Shown here: positions 38,537-44,615 of the stretch, in pieces
Position numbering within the stretch: the first letter of the stretch is position 1
Layout of the letters: every line of letters starts with the position of its first letter
Source of the DNA: a bacterium
GTDB lineage: Bacteria; Cyanobacteriota; Vampirovibrionia; Gastranaerophilales; Gastranaerophilaceae
NCBI GenBank assembly: GCA_017942035.1
Contig: JAGAVG010000013.1
Span: 1-51,228 of the forward strand
DNA: 51,228 nucleotides
Reading direction: 5' to 3'
Notes under the pieces: model-generated
The model's database searches: none
What the model was told of the DNA's origin: nothing
What the model saw: only the letters and a program-made list of their open reading frames with translations
Program-made: the position numbers and the translations under genes

Positions 38537-39613
38537 ATGGGGCTGACAAAAACATCAAACTTAACACTTGAAGGTGTTGCGATAGGGTCCCTGCCGTGTA
38601 CAGATGCCGATGAAGCTATGTATATTGTGGAAAAATATTTCCATAACGTTCCGTTTTGGCCTCAGTTAACAAAAATCAGTAAAAAAGAAGACATGCTTGT
38701 CCAGTTTTTGGAGAACATGCCTTCTTTTTTTATTGAAAAAAACTGCTTAGATTCCGATTACAAAGATTTTACAAGCGATTTGAAGGCTTTTTTAAACGAT
38801 TATAATAAAATAATCCTTGACCAAAATGCAACGGAGTTTGATAAATACGGCCTTTCTCGAGATTACGCATCCGCATTTGAACGCTTTATTCATCTTGTAA
38901 AAAACAAACGTCCGAGATATGCAAAAGGGCAAATTGCAGGGCCTTTCACTCTTTTAACAACTTTCCATGATAAAAACGGCACAACTGCAATTCATAACCC
39001 TTTGTATCGTGAAATTATGCTTAAAACTCTTATTTTAAAGACTTTATGGCAGATAAAAGAGATTAAAAAAGCCTCACCGGAGACAATTCCGATAATCTTC
39101 ATTGATGAACCGTCTTTATCCAAAATTCAAGTTTTTGATAAAACAATGCAAAACTATGCAGCCTCAATGATTAGAGAAATATCAGCAATAATTCGGGCAA
39201 ACGGCGGGCTGAGCGGAGTTCACTGCTGTTCAAAGTGCGACTGGAGAATTCCGATATTCGCAGGTGTTGACATAATCAATCCGGATGCTTTTTTCTATCC
39301 GGAAACTTTGAACATATATTCAAATGAAATAATTAACTTTATAAATCATGGCGGAAAATTAGCACTGGGAATAGTCCCGACACGTGAAAAGAATGTAATT
39401 GAGAGTTTAACAATACAAGATTTGGAAGAAAAATTTGAAGAAGCTGTAAAAAATTTGACTAATAAAGGAATTGATGAGAAAATTATTATAGACAATTTAA
39501 TCATAACACCGGCCTGCGGTGCCGGAAATCTTGATGAAAGGCTGGCTCTAAAAGCAATGGAAATGACATTTGAATTGTCTGAAAAGTTAAAAAAGAAGTA
39601 TTCAGTGAGGTAA
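38537..39613 (+). CDS. Core-MetE/UROD-like methyltransferase
   Basis: 358 residues matching only the C-terminal catalytic barrel of cobalamin-independent methionine synthase. GQIAGPFTLL at 131-140, IDEPSL at 189, the zinc pair His229-x-Cys231 in GVHCCSKCDW, and Cys327 in TPACGAG. The N-terminal tetrahydrofolate-binding half of MetE is absent. Short core-MetE proteins in other bacteria take the methyl group from methylcobalamin or a corrinoid protein. Neighbours are a CooC-like ATPase and FolD, supporting a one-carbon/corrinoid role. The substrate is inferred only. Confidence 0.75.
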   Translation: MGLTKTSNLTLEGVAIGSLPCTDADEAMYIVEKYFHNVPFWPQLTKISKKEDMLVQFLENMPSFFIEKNCLDSDYKDFTSDLKAFLNDYNKIILDQNATEFDKYGLSRDYASAFERFIHLVKNKRPRYAKGQIAGPFTLLTTFHDKNGTTAIHNPLYREIMLKTLILKTLWQIKEIKKASPETIPIIFIDEPSLSKIQVFDKTMQNYAASMIREISAIIRANGGLSGVHCCSKCDWRIPIFAGVDIINPDAFFYPETLNIYSNEIINFINHGGKLALGIVPTREKNVIESLTIQDLEEKFEEAVKNLTNKGIDEKIIIDNLIITPACGAGNLDERLALKAMEMTFELSEKLKKKYSVR

Positions 39614-39617
39614 ATTC

Positions 39618-40370
39618 TTGACAGTAAAACTTGCAATAACAGGTAAAAGCGGGAGCGGAAAAACATCAGTAACTAAAGCATTTATGCAAATATTTAAGGA
39701 ACAATTTCCCGAAAAATCAATTTTACTTTTTGACAATGATTTAACCGGAGAATTGGGACATAGTTTCGGACTTGATATAAGAAACACAATCTATGGTATC
39801 AGAAGCGGAAAACACGAATATAAAACCGGAATTCCTGAAAACATGTCAAAACAAGAGTTTGTAGAATGGGCAATGGAAGATATTGTCGTATCTTTAGACG
39901 ATAATGTTGATATAATTGTGTCCTGGTTTGTGGGTTCAAAAGATTGCCGCTGTCCGATTACTAAACAGATAAATGATGCCGTGATAAAACTTATTGAACG
40001 CTATGATATTGTTATTTTTGACTGCGAATTTGATTTAAAATATTTAAATCAGCTTGTCGATATTGATATTGATACCGCATTAATAGTAGCAAATCCGAGC
40101 GAAGAATCGGCACATTTGGCCAAAAGAATTGAAGAATTCAGCGCAAAATACGCAGCTGGCACCCAGCTCGGCGTAGTTATAAATAAAGTTGAAAACAATG
40201 AAATATCAACGGTTTATGAACTGCTTAACAAATACAACCTCGATATATTAGGGGTTATACCTTTTGATGATAACATTGAGAAAATCTCAAGAGAATCGGT
40301 AAAAATTCAAGAGGCCATAAAACAGTTTTATTTTAGATTAAATCTTCCGCAAGAAAAGGATTACCAGTAA
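39618..40370 (+). CDS. CooC/AcsF-like P-loop maturation ATPase
   Basis: 250 residues starting at TTG 39618, four bases after the MetE-like stop, with GAGG upstream. P-loop TGKSGSGKTS at 8-17 is of the deviant MinD/CooC type. A CxC pair (Cys110, Cys112 in KDCRCPITK) is the metal-binding, dimerising signature of CooC-type nickel chaperones for CO dehydrogenase/acetyl-CoA synthase. ERYDIVIFDCEF is the Walker B strand. No CODH gene is in view. It could mature a nickel or corrinoid enzyme linked to the MetE-like protein. The next ATG follows its stop directly. Confidence 0.75.
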   Translation: MTVKLAITGKSGSGKTSVTKAFMQIFKEQFPEKSILLFDNDLTGELGHSFGLDIRNTIYGIRSGKHEYKTGIPENMSKQEFVEWAMEDIVVSLDDNVDIIVSWFVGSKDCRCPITKQINDAVIKLIERYDIVIFDCEFDLKYLNQLVDIDIDTALIVANPSEESAHLAKRIEEFSAKYAAGTQLGVVINKVENNEISTVYELLNKYNLDILGVIPFDDNIEKISRESVKIQEAIKQFYFRLNLPQEKDYQ

Positions 40371-41225
40371 ATGACAACAATTTTAAACGGAAAAAATTTA
40401 AGAGATATAATCCTTGCGGATTTGAAAATACGGGTCGAAAAGTTTATGGCGCCCCCTGAACTTGCGGTTATTCTGGTCGGTGAAAATCCGGCGAGCTTGA
40501 TTTATGTAAACAATAAAAAGAAAACTGCTGAAAAACTCGGAATAGTTTCACACGTTATAAAATTTCCGCAAAATGTTTCAGAAAGCAATCTTATAAAAAC
40601 AATAAAAATTTTAAACGAAAAAAAGTCCACAACAGCTATACTTGTTCAATTACCGCTGCCGGAACATATTGACAAATTTAAAGTTATAGATGCAATTGCA
40701 CCGGAGAAAGACGTGGATGGGTTAACTCCATATAACAGCGGAAAACTTTTTTCCGGCGAAAAACCTTTTGTTTACCCTTGCACCCCGCGCGGAATATTAC
40801 ATCTGCTTGAAAAATATCATATTGAAATTGAAGGTAAAAATGTCGTAGTTATAGGCCGCTCAAACCTTGTCGGCAAACCTGTTGCGCAAATGATGATGAA
40901 TAAAAACGCAACGGTTACAATGTGTCACAGCCACAGTAAAAATCTTGCGGAAATAACCAAAAATGCAGATATTTTAATTTCGGCTGTCGGAAAGAAAATT
41001 ATTACTGAAAATATGGTAAAAGAAAATTGCGTAGTCGTTGATGTCGGAATTTTTAAAGATGAAAACGGCAAAACAACCGGTGATGTTGATTTCGAAAATG
41101 TTTCAAAAAAAGCCGGATTTATATCACCTGTTCCGGGTGGTGTAGGCCCAATGACAATCGCATCATTAATGCTCAATACGGTTGATTTATACGAAATTCA
41201 ACACAATATAAATATTTTCAAATAA
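40371..41225 (+). CDS. folD: Methylene-THF dehydrogenase/methenyl-THF cyclohydrolase
   Basis: 284 residues. SLIYVNNKKKTAEKLGI carries the catalytic Tyr and Lys, LVQLPLPEHID and PEKDVDGLTP the folate site, GRSNLVGKPVAQMM the NADP-binding loop, and SPVPGGVGPMTIASLM the C-terminal signature. It interconverts methylene- and formyl-THF. It is the last gene of the rplI-MetE-like-CooC-like-folD run and ends in a hairpin terminator. Confidence 0.96.
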   Translation: MTTILNGKNLRDIILADLKIRVEKFMAPPELAVILVGENPASLIYVNNKKKTAEKLGIVSHVIKFPQNVSESNLIKTIKILNEKKSTTAILVQLPLPEHIDKFKVIDAIAPEKDVDGLTPYNSGKLFSGEKPFVYPCTPRGILHLLEKYHIEIEGKNVVVIGRSNLVGKPVAQMMMNKNATVTMCHSHSKNLAEITKNADILISAVGKKIITENMVKENCVVVDVGIFKDENGKTTGDVDFENVSKKAGFISPVPGGVGPMTIASLMLNTVDLYEIQHNINIFK

Positions 41226-41289: not shown

Positions 41290-41619
41290 CTAGCCTCCGA
41301 GCAAGTTCAATGTACAAGACGATTTGATATTGTTGTTTACCATTGTCTTCATTGCAGAAATCGAGTTGTCCAGAATGCTTATCTGGGAATCCAGAGAATC
41401 TTGTCTTGACTGAAGATATTCTTCTTGCTGTTGAAGAGCTACGTATGTCGGATCTTCATCGCAATCCCAATCTGGATTTCCGTCATTTGCCTCTGTAATA
41501 TAGCCCATTTCTTTGGTAACTCTTTGCGCTCTATTCATAATAAGTGTCTGTTCAATTTGCAACTGGCTTTTTTGCATTGTAAATAATGATTTTTGTGAAT
41601 CTACTGCTAAAAATGTCAT
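41290..41619 (-). CDS. Small helical protein, end-helix plan shared with 26230-27867
   Basis: 109 residues: an N-terminal helix (LAVDSQKSLFTMQKSQLQIE), an acidic hinge with two Trp/Cys-type residues (NPDWDCDEDPTY), and a C-terminal coiled coil (YLQSRQDSLDSQISILDNSI) ending CTLNLLGG. The two-helix plan and the Tyr-x2-Leu...Gln start of the second helix resemble the ends of the 545-residue protein at 26230. No signal peptide. It may be a secreted or polymerising small protein. AAGGAGAGAAG precedes the ATG. Function unknown. Confidence 0.7.
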   Translation of the reverse strand: MTFLAVDSQKSLFTMQKSQLQIEQTLIMNRAQRVTKEMGYITEANDGNPDWDCDEDPTYVALQQQEEYLQSRQDSLDSQISILDNSISAMKTMVNNNIKSSCTLNLLGG

Positions 41620-41751: not shown

Positions 41752-41916
41752 ATTTTAGGATAAAGAAAAGAGGAAATGGAAGTGAATATCTTCAACTGCT
41801 GCCGCAGCCGTAAAAGTCGGAACACTCAATTGATTATAAAAGTTTTAGTCACGTGCAGTCTGATTAAGGCTTTAGCTGGTCATAGTGTCCTCTTTACGTA
41901 GAAAAAAAGAGGATAT
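41752..41916 (+). promoter_or_regulatory. Cobalamin riboswitch with SD-masking hairpin
   Basis: The leader reads GAGGAAATGGAAGTGAATAT then CTTCAACTGCTGCCGCAGCC and GTAA, matching the cobalamin aptamer core (GGGAA..GTG.AAATC..AACTGC..CCGCA.C.GTAA). AGTCACG and GATTAAGGC further on fit AGCCACTG and GGGAAGGC. The output is visible: TCCTCTTT (41888-41895) can pair with AAAGAGGA at 41906-41913, the ribosome site of the next gene, or with an identical AAAGAGGA at 41767-41774. Cobalamin binding would be expected to switch between these, probably repressing translation. Identified from memory of the consensus, not by a covariance search. Confidence 0.75.
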
Positions 41917-41920
41917 TTTT

Positions 41921-42619
41921 ATGCACTTAGGTGCCGCATTACCGGCTCAAAATTCAAAAATCGGAACCTGTCCGCACGGACTGCCTATAGGAGCCTGCCC
42001 AATATGTAACGGCAGCGGCGGAGGCGGCGGAGTTTCGAGACGTGATGTTCCGCGCAATCCGGGTGAGATGACCTACGCTCAATGTGCAGAAATAGGTGCA
42101 ATGATGAAAGCTAATAAACTGGCAAAACAAGCAAGGGAAGAGGCTAACTTACAACACCTTCAAAATCTTGCAAATTTTCAAAAATCTATGGATAAAGCTA
42201 TTCAAAAAAATATTCAGCTTGCCGCCATTATACAAAATTCCATGCCGGCAATCATCTCTAAACCGGTTAATTTTATCTTAAATACAGTCTTAAACGGAGC
42301 CTTGAATTTCATAAAAAATCTTCCGGTTAACATTTCAAATATTATTCAGAATTTCAACCAAAAACTCATTGATATTTCAGATAAATTAACAGCAATGGCA
42401 GGTGAGTTCAAAGCCGCCGCCGCAAAGACTTTGTCTGACGCATTTAAAATTTTAAAAAAGAAAGCAAAATCTTTATTTTCAATATTTACAGCTCAAAACT
42501 TAGACGATGATGACAAACAAATAGAAGAAACAAAACGAACATTTGAATTAAAAACATTCATTCATGATTTATACAAAAAACTTACAGAAGAAAACAAAAA
42601 GGATATAGAAAATGGTTAA
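41921..42619 (+). CDS. Cys-motif helical protein, first gene of riboswitch operon
   Basis: 232 residues from the ATG at 41921, seven bases after AGAGGA; the frame opens earlier, inside the riboswitch. The N-terminus holds TCPHGLPIGACPICNGSG, a possible four-ligand metal site (Cys, His, Cys, Cys), then a glycine linker. The rest is helical with a hydrophobic stretch near residues 105-145 (IIQNSMPAIISKPVNFILNT, VLNGALNFIKNL) and a charged C-terminus. No family is recognised. The ATG of the next gene overlaps its end by eight bases. Confidence 0.75.
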   Translation: MHLGAALPAQNSKIGTCPHGLPIGACPICNGSGGGGGVSRRDVPRNPGEMTYAQCAEIGAMMKANKLAKQAREEANLQHLQNLANFQKSMDKAIQKNIQLAAIIQNSMPAIISKPVNFILNTVLNGALNFIKNLPVNISNIIQNFNQKLIDISDKLTAMAGEFKAAAAKTLSDAFKILKKKAKSLFSIFTAQNLDDDDKQIEETKRTFELKTFIHDLYKKLTEENKKDIENG

Positions 42620-44117
42620 TGTACACCCGTTCAACGATGCGGAAACCGTACGCCAGCAGCGCAATCTTACAAATTCACAAAAAAAGAATAACCGCTCCAC
42701 AAAGGAAGGTGTTCTTGTTAACAGCTTTGTAAAAGATAAAGATAACAATATTCATACATCATTATCGGAAACGAAAGATGCGTTTGTAATCTCAGAAGAC
42801 ACAAAAATGCCGGAAAAATTATATGAAAACACCCGTTTGCCGGATAGAAAACTTTTTCCTCTGAGCATAGCCGCAATTGGAGTAATGGGCGCTGTCGCAG
42901 GTTTAACAGCATTTGTAAGCCGCAGTGCAAAAATATCAACAGAACTTGCCAAAGAAAAATGGCTTCCTGCTGTAACCCGTAACGTACAGTTGAGCCGTGA
43001 AACAACTCAGGTCATTTATCAAATGGTTCAAAACCCGAACAGAAAAACGTTCATAGCCGGTGCCGGAGTTTTTGCCCTCACGGCTATGGCATTTATGGGA
43101 AAAACATTTTTCGACGGATACAAAGAAATCTGGGTTAAAAGAAGGGAAGCCGAAATTCAGAAAGACCTTCAAGAAAATTTGGTTAACGTTGAAACTCAAT
43201 CTTTCTCGGGAAAAATGCAAATTATAAGGAGCATGCTTTCAAAATATACGCAGGATTTTGAAAAATATTTAACAATTGAAAACAAAAAAAATATAACAAA
43301 TTTTGCAAGCCAGAAAAATTCTTCGTTGTGGTTCGGGCACAAAGATAAAAATTTCATCCAAAACAATTCTAATTCTTCCGGAGCAAATATTCTGCTCGGA
43401 CTTGCTACAATACTCTCAGTTGCAGGTTTGGGGTATATTTCTTTGAAAAATCTTTCAAAAAGCAAAAAACATCTCGAAAATTACATTGATGATACAAAAG
43501 AAATAATATCCAGACTTGTTAAAAAATCCGGGAATGAAACAAAAAATGTTGACAAAAGCAATCTTGAACATCTTTTCCTTGCAGTTGATGCTGACGAAAC
43601 ATTTGTAAGAACGCAGATTAATAATCTAAATTGGCCGCAAAAAGAAAAAGAAGAATTTATAGATTACATTGTGACAAAAATAAAAACCTCCACAACAAAG
43701 GTTAACCCGAACATAGGAGGAGACGGAACTCCGAAACCTGCGTTTAACTCATTTGTAGAAGATTACAGAGCATTTTTCTATAACTGGCTTTTAGATACGT
43801 CTAACCCGCAATTCAAACAGCTCTTTATCGGAGTAACAGGAATTACGGCTGTCGGCTATGGCGGCAAACTTACTGGAGATGCGCTTAAAGAAGTTCAGGT
43901 AAAAAAAATAAACGCTGAAACCGAACTCGAACTTCAAAAAAATCTAGTGTCGACAGAACTTAGAAACTTTAAATCTAAAAAAGATGCGGCGATAAAACCG
44001 CTTGTAGATGAATTCTATAAACAACTGCAAAACGGCAAAGATAAAGAAGAACTTAAAACAATGGCAGAAAATATCTTAAATGAAATCAAAAACGGCCCGC
44101 CGTTTGTATATTCATAA
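42612..44117 (+). CDS. Membrane protein with internal duplication, second gene of riboswitch operon
   Basis: 501 residues. Hydrophobic segments lie near 81-103, 145-165, 257-278 and 402-422. Residues about 144-207 (KTFIAGAGVFALTAMAFMGK, then DLQENLVNVE) repeat at about 402-465 (KQLFIGVTGITAVGYGGKLT, then LQKNLVSTE), each a membrane segment followed by a charged helix with AE.E..LQ.NLV..E...F..K. No signal peptide and no known domain. It overlaps the upstream gene and lies 24 bp from the downstream one. Function unknown; the riboswitch points to a cobalamin-linked role. Confidence 0.75.
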   Translation: MVNVHPFNDAETVRQQRNLTNSQKKNNRSTKEGVLVNSFVKDKDNNIHTSLSETKDAFVISEDTKMPEKLYENTRLPDRKLFPLSIAAIGVMGAVAGLTAFVSRSAKISTELAKEKWLPAVTRNVQLSRETTQVIYQMVQNPNRKTFIAGAGVFALTAMAFMGKTFFDGYKEIWVKRREAEIQKDLQENLVNVETQSFSGKMQIIRSMLSKYTQDFEKYLTIENKKNITNFASQKNSSLWFGHKDKNFIQNNSNSSGANILLGLATILSVAGLGYISLKNLSKSKKHLENYIDDTKEIISRLVKKSGNETKNVDKSNLEHLFLAVDADETFVRTQINNLNWPQKEKEEFIDYIVTKIKTSTTKVNPNIGGDGTPKPAFNSFVEDYRAFFYNWLLDTSNPQFKQLFIGVTGITAVGYGGKLTGDALKEVQVKKINAETELELQKNLVSTELRNFKSKKDAAIKPLVDEFYKQLQNGKDKEELKTMAENILNEIKNGPPFVYS

Positions 44118-44141
44118 AAATAATAACGGAGAAAATTTAAC

Positions 44142-44615
44142 ATGATAAATTCCATAACCATAAACAGTCAAAATATTCCGCAATGTCCCTGCTATCCGCA
44201 AAGACAGCCTAAGAATTATCGTGTATTCAATCAGAACAAAGTTGATTATTTTGTAAAACAGAAGGAGAAAAGTCTCCCTTACCTTGCACAGGTTCTGGGG
44301 CATTCTCAAAACGATAACGAAATAGTTGAACACTTATACATTCTTGACAGATGTATTGAAAACGGGACACAAAATACAAAAAAAATGTATCCGGTATTAG
44401 CGCGTTTTAACAATACACAAAATCCGGAAATACAAACCTTTTTGGCTGGAATTTATCGAAAAATACAAGTTCCGGATGCTTTTGGCCCGCTTGTAAAAAT
44501 GCTTATCAGAAACAGTCTCTCCCCTCAGAAAACTGTCAATTTTGATCCGGATGAAGAAATCGGAGGCGCAATTTTATCCTATATAAATCCGTATTTTTGT
44601 AAAAAGTCTTGTTAA
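44142..44615 (+). CDS. Hypothetical helical protein, third gene of riboswitch operon
   Basis: 157 residues. The N-terminus has CPCYPQRQPKNYRVFNQNK. The remainder resembles short helical repeats (HLYILDRCIENGTQNTKKMY, TFLAGIYRKIQVPDAFGPLV). It ends CKKSC. ACGGAGAA precedes the ATG. It converges with dusB three bases away. No family is recognised. Confidence 0.65.
   Translation: MINSITINSQNIPQCPCYPQRQPKNYRVFNQNKVDYFVKQKEKSLPYLAQVLGHSQNDNEIVEHLYILDRCIENGTQNTKKMYPVLARFNNTQNPEIQTFLAGIYRKIQVPDAFGPLVKMLIRNSLSPQKTVNFDPDEEIGGAILSYINPYFCKKSC

Follow-up and report, generated by a model that had tools for sequence, protein, structure and literature searches.

Known cobalamin systems and the analysed locus

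The described systems closest to the locus reported here are the cobalamin riboswitches of Rfam family RF01689 (AdoCbl-II, clan CL00101), the BtuB-BtuCDF importer, the ECF-type systems with BtuM and CbrT, the BtuG and BtuH proteins, and NrdDG and MetE. BtuM and CbrT are S-components with six transmembrane segments. BtuG and BtuH are surface lipoproteins (PMC10404256, PMC8941943). The B12 source of most gut Gastranaerophilales or 'Melainabacteria' is unexplained: AdoCbl-dependent NrdJ is used, and corrin synthesis and BtuCDF are mostly missing.

We analysed a stretch of 51,228 nucleotides (the window) from a member of the Gastranaerophilaceae, in which an AdoCbl-II riboswitch lies in front of three forward-strand genes, A, B and C. 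BtuB-BtuCDF is preceded by the same switch in relatives (L067, L071, L073, L084, L086, L092) and is a statistical alternative to A-B-C, whereas A-B-C has no sequence similarity to it and, by Pfam and NCBIfam, contains no TonB receptor, FecCD permease, ABC ATPase or periplasmic binding-protein domain. The ECF-type systems, BtuM, CbrT, BtuG and BtuH would fill the same physiological role, but A, B and C match no such family, including the described ECF-type S-component families such as CbrT and BtuM in Pfam and NCBIfam. NrdDG and MetE share the regulator, and would share the repression logic, with A-B-C in the same order of bacteria; unlike them, A-B-C includes a membrane protein, and no enzyme domain was matched in Pfam or NCBIfam. 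No paper combining Gastranaerophilales with riboswitches was found in the literature searched, and the titles and abstracts of the papers naming the order together with cobalamin do not appear to treat A-B-C or its switch.

The riboswitch in front of gene A

A covariance-model search over the window placed an AdoCbl-II (class II) cobalamin riboswitch aptamer at 41762..41835 on the plus strand (RF01689; 40.1 bits with a gathering threshold of 36.5; E 3.5e-6). The preliminary description, which set its start at 41752, about 10 bases 5' of this match, had claimed a cobalamin core in the leader and named RF00174 as the model to be matched. In this literal form the claim did not stand, as RF00174 gave 23.1 bits at the same spot, under its gathering cut-off of 31.5; its substance did, since RF01689, which is above its own cut-off, belongs to the same Rfam clan. 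The element is a further member of the known family RF01689, and it was the only above-threshold AdoCbl-II match in the host genome (2.0 Mb, 99.7% complete). A second RF01689 match in that genome, at C43:30747, was sub-cut-off (27.6 bits), lay in an unrelated context and was set aside.

Like other members of the family, the window element has the core GGAAA..GUG..UC..GCCGCAGCCGUAAAAGUCGGAA, whose cobalamin-binding positions were invariant columns in the alignment of homologous leaders, together with the potential for an L5-L13 kissing interaction and an expression platform that hides the Shine-Dalgarno sequence. It differs in having only a degenerate version of the outer helix drawn in the Rfam model, and in that the genes it precedes are unlike any known B12 gene; the ligand is the one predicted from the family.

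Expression platform of the leader

Downstream of the aptamer, folding predicted a P13 hairpin (41840..41873, plus strand), the loop of which, GCAG (41855-41858), can pair with L5 of the aptamer (CUGC) as a kissing loop. The L5/L13 complementarity was 3.17 over 72 leaders, compared with a control mean of 2.77 and a maximum of 3.03 over 200 re-paired draws, which is a modest effect. The next plus-strand element is an anti-Shine-Dalgarno strand, GUCCUCUUU (41887..41895), which can pair with the Shine-Dalgarno sequence of gene A, AAAGAGGAU (41906..41914); the latter, after which comes a U-rich stretch, was folded into one hairpin together with the start codon. The GUCCUCUUU/AAAGAGGAU hairpin covers both the Shine-Dalgarno sequence and the AUG of A (–12.7 kcal/mol, z –3.35). 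The alternative partner of the anti-Shine-Dalgarno strand would be the 5' strand of the aptamer, AAGAGGA (41768-41774). A GTG at 41885, listed as the start of A among the open reading frames, is probably spurious, and the likely start is the ATG at 41921, which has a Shine-Dalgarno sequence.

In the proposed mechanism, the anti-Shine-Dalgarno strand would pair with the aptamer 5' strand when cobalamin is absent, so that the Shine-Dalgarno sequence would be open and A-B-C made; when cobalamin is bound, the aptamer would be locked by the L5-L13 kissing interaction, and the strand would hide the Shine-Dalgarno sequence and the AUG. Cobalamin would thus repress A-B-C at the level of translation, and possibly also through termination, because of the U-rich stretch after the hairpin.

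Proteins encoded by A, B and C

Gene A (41921..42619, plus strand) encodes a protein of 232 aa with a C-x-H-x6-C-x2-C motif, a Gly-rich stretch, a GEMSW/C box and amphipathic helices, and is conserved in 78 loci. The motif, CPHGLPIGACPIC (41969..42007, plus strand; C17, H19, C26 and C29), reads CPHG..CPIC and was nearly invariant in the alignment of A, which is regarded as a putative cytosolic metal-binding subunit. Gene B (42612..44117, plus strand) overlaps A by 8 bp and encodes a membrane protein of 501 aa composed of two copies of a unit of transmembrane segment plus long helix, and ending in a conserved C-terminal tail, KNGPPFVYS. Unit 1 (residues 142-215, GKTFFDGYKEIWVKRREAEIQ...FSGK, 43035..43256, plus strand) and unit 2 (residues 398-470, GKLTGDALKEVQVKKINAETELELQ...FKSKK, 43803..44021, plus strand) were aligned to each other by hhalign with a probability of 97.3% and an E of 2.1e-11, demonstrating an internal duplication. 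B is cysteine-free, with hydrophobic segments at residues 79-106, 145-167 and 255-279 and a weaker fourth one; its structure model showed long helices at low confidence (pLDDT 63). Gene C (44142..44615, plus strand) encodes 157 aa, for which AF2 predicted a six-helix, HEAT/ARM-like protein (pLDDT 82.1, pTM 0.72) with the conserved stretches LAGIYRK-QVPDAFGPL and FDPnEEIGGAIL.

None of the three proteins matched a family in Pfam, NCBIfam, PHROGs or PADLOC, the last two giving sub-threshold matches only. PDB and Foldseek searches returned nothing significant for B and C, the best PDB matches of C being helical-repeat proteins; the best PDB matches of A were S100-type helices with an E of 0.07 or worse. 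No obvious signal peptide was seen by eye in A, B or C, and there is no ATPase among the three. The preliminary description had read the genes as overlapping or closely spaced frames for a Cys-motif protein, a membrane protein with an internal duplication and a short helical protein, all unlike known B12 genes, and the results above bear it out on each of these points. The A-B-C proteins form a module outside known families, and would represent a new kind of B12 system.

One reading of these features is that A-B-C is an intracellular complex at the membrane that handles cobalamin or cobalt (storage, chaperoning, or delivery to NrdJ and other users), the Cys/His motif of A binding cobalt, zinc or a corrinoid. 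Two of the three proteins are soluble, the motif of A is conserved and no transporter fold was found, all of which would suit such a complex; but the missing importer would be left unexplained, and three CbiC-positive, NrdJ-using relatives that lack the operon would need handling too. This reading is considered rather unlikely.

Conservation of the operon and its switch

B homologues were found in 44 of 59 relatives. In a first set of 30 homologous loci, A, B and C had the same order, C being undetected in three, and the switch was located 5' of A in all 30: at the gathering cut-off in 27, below it in two (31.7 and 36.0 bits), and by an intact core with an inserted helix in one. A second set was obtained by a GTDB genome scan with C, which gave 329 relatives; the 80 kept were, as far as their titles were informative, mostly MAGs of Gastranaerophilales or 'Melainabacteria'. 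A-B-C occurred in order in 77 of these 80 loci, the remaining three ending at contig ends, and the cobalamin core was found 5' of the operon in 76/76 testable loci (72 by motif and four by eye, with an extra helix in P6). The core motif matched four times in 2.4 Mb of background. Given that the score of the window element exceeds the cut-off by just 3.6 bits and that the Rfam outer helix pairs poorly, it could be argued that the riboswitch assignment is spurious or that the element belongs to something else. Its recurrence upstream of the operon in every testable locus of both sets, compared with the rarity of the motif in the background, and an L5/L13 complementarity above control make this extremely improbable, and a chance riboswitch was ruled out by the conservation across homologous loci.

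The switch is the only conserved context of A-B-C, and no set of neighbouring genes is shared across the loci, although six of them have nrdDG close to A-B-C. In the window, a cluster just 5' of the operon (38537-41225) contains a MetE-like gene (a weak methionine synthase match), a gene for a CbiA/MinD-like ATPase and folD. Synteny with this cluster was considered and rejected, the genes not being conserved next to A-B-C. Divergent from the operon lies an open reading frame for a 109-aa coiled-coil-like protein (41290-41619, minus strand), resembling the small proteins of MGLAASQAR type seen repeatedly around these loci. No relative was found on viral contigs.

Two variations were observed among the loci. 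The extra helix sits in P6 in L124, L146, L158 and L163, all 5' of A, and near P4 in L029:583-666; Rfam-style patterns may miss such aptamers. An A-C-C variant without B stands behind the same switch in L077:1-1830 (G031) and L080:4460-6336 (G027).

Distant homologues of B

A profile of B gave weak matches to proteins of about 500 aa in other families of the class. These distant homologues have 15–18% identity to B and the same two-unit architecture, and share with it the residues V-x-K-x-NA-x-TE and, at the C terminus, N-x-(S)-A/P-P. Four of six such genes lie directly 3' of cobalamin switches, one matching RF01689 (37.9 bits), one RF00174 (35.9 bits) and two being sub-threshold (29.4 and 28.2 bits). 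In these outgroups B has no detectable A or C nearby. At this sensitivity B was not found outside the class in 386 genomes of the phylum (oxygenic cyanobacteria and other classes); one weak class-level match, L198, was unrelated and was rejected. These results suggest that B is the ancestral core, and the position of the distant B genes behind cobalamin switches points to an old link with such switches.

The same observation bears on whether the operon is tied to B12 only indirectly, serving the surface, host interaction or the envelope and reading its surroundings through the switch. The gut habitat of the relatives, and proteins that are lineage-specific and of unknown fold, would be compatible with such a role. 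Nevertheless, the link with cobalamin switches reaches very distant B homologues and two switch classes, and the presence of the operon tracks the absence of other B12 routes (see below), so that an indirect role is thought very improbable.

Other targets of the switch in relatives

RF01689 gave 77 matches at E ≤ 1e-3 in the 59 relatives, 38 of which were within 3.5 kb of B. Apart from the B loci, the inspected targets were nrdD-nrdG in many genomes, metE and btuB-C-D-F, as well as genes for a B12-binding radical SAM protein and for an OprB porin, the latter with a CbiM-like gene behind it in one case, and, in the class-level relative G058, nrdA. Since a cobalamin-OFF switch typically governs such genes, A-B-C is expected to be made at low cobalamin.

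Control of nrdDG, metE and nrdA by the same switch family also raises the possibility that A-B-C is a B12-independent substitute or a low-B12 stress system, switched on at low cobalamin as they are, and the operon is indeed kept in five genomes without NrdJ and BtuR. Against this, A-B-C contains no catalytic family, there is nothing in the order to replace in membrane form, and nrdDG is separately switch-controlled in many A-B-C genomes. The absence of the operon from CbiC-positive genomes would be unexpected for a substitute as well, because switch-controlled metE persists there (G036). This explanation is judged quite improbable.

B12 metabolism and co-occurrence

In the host, an AdoCbl-dependent NrdJ is accompanied by two BtuR/CobA adenosyltransferases. 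Its genome contained no MetH activation domain, no CbiC (a corrin-ring marker) and no FecCD/BtuC permease; the matches to B12-binding domains were radical SAM proteins, and no B12 gene cluster was seen by eye in the neighbourhoods of the adenosyltransferases and NrdJ.

Co-occurrence was evaluated in 59 genomes, 45 of them of high quality, counting as operon A-B-C, or A-C-C in two genomes, and as another route CbiC or, as the known importer covered by the genome search, BtuC. CbiC or BtuC was present in 4 of 46 operon genomes and in 8 of 13 others (Fisher p 2e-4 for the 59 genomes and 7e-4 for the 45 high-quality ones, both ignoring ancestry). All six nrdJ-positive genomes without the operon have CbiC or BtuC. 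Among AdoCbl users lacking both CbiC and BtuC, 37 of 38 carry the operon, the exception being G001 (93% complete), and none of three CbiC-positive genomes carries it. The operon and BtuC occur together in four genomes. Users, other routes and the operon are all missing from G018, G028, G032 and G048, the last two of which are incomplete genomes.

Five genomes (G005, G011, G023, G026 and G030) have A-B-C and strong AdoCbl-II switches without NrdJ and BtuR/CobA, so the operon serves not only AdoCbl and NrdJ. These genomes may use other corrinoid enzymes, and their switches may sense non-adenosylated cobalamin. In B. subtilis, QueG is the sole Cbl-dependent enzyme (PMC9600662).

The preliminary description had suggested that the operon might take up, store or replace B12. 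A B12 role was supported, and the genome comparison favours acquisition or uptake over replacement, because the operon is found in nearly all AdoCbl users without BtuC and CbiC and in no CbiC-positive genome. We consider it somewhat probable that a class-II cobalamin OFF switch controls A-B-C and that the operon is the corrinoid (B12) supply of Gastranaerophilales-type bacteria, most likely by uptake across the inner membrane; it is regulation and phyletic pattern that point to uptake. That A-B-C is a new family of B12 importers unrelated to BtuCDF and ECF systems, with an ancient membrane core, B, that occurs across several families of this non-photosynthetic cyanobacterial class under two cobalamin riboswitch classes, seems quite possible and falls a little short of probable.

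In the corresponding model, whose protein roles, transport step, topology and energy source we infer, the duplicated B with about three to four transmembrane helices would be the membrane core, and A, with its metal-binding motif, and the HEAT-like C would be cytosolic partners. Once inside, the corrinoid would be converted to its adenosyl form by BtuR/CobA; its main user would be NrdJ, joined in some lineages by other corrinoid-using proteins. Several points stand against corrinoid acquisition by A-B-C: the proteins have no family or fold likeness to any transporter, the operon encodes no ATPase or energy-coupling protein, and the structure model of B is of low confidence. To these are added the B-less A-C-C variants, the outgroup B without A or C nearby, the four genomes in which the operon and BtuC coexist and the five without NrdJ and BtuR. 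With A-B-C, the riboswitch points to a candidate for the missing system, which makes the gap in the B12 supply of these bacteria directly testable and, if the assignment is true, would extend vitamin transport by a new class of membrane proteins.

Additional switch-controlled genes

Another orphan target was observed at L070:557-2131, where an AdoCbl-II switch (G014:C7:7656-7733, 44.0 bits) precedes genes for two small proteins of 94 and 160 aa. At L072:2318-3985 and L090:599-2790, AdoCbl-II switches precede genes for OprB-type porins; in L090 the gene for a CbiM-like cobalt transporter comes next, and the two genomes are CbiC-positive. This suggests that the switch-controlled OprB-type porin is B12- or cobalt-related. 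Similar N-termini ending in aromatic-x-Gly/Ser were seen in proteins at L209:2431-3093, L211:2664-5336, L077:1-558 and L088:228-584 (SFQGRF, VTFGSE, AFTGKN and AFKS); such an N-terminus occurs in many proteins of these genomes and is possibly a lineage-specific sorting signal.
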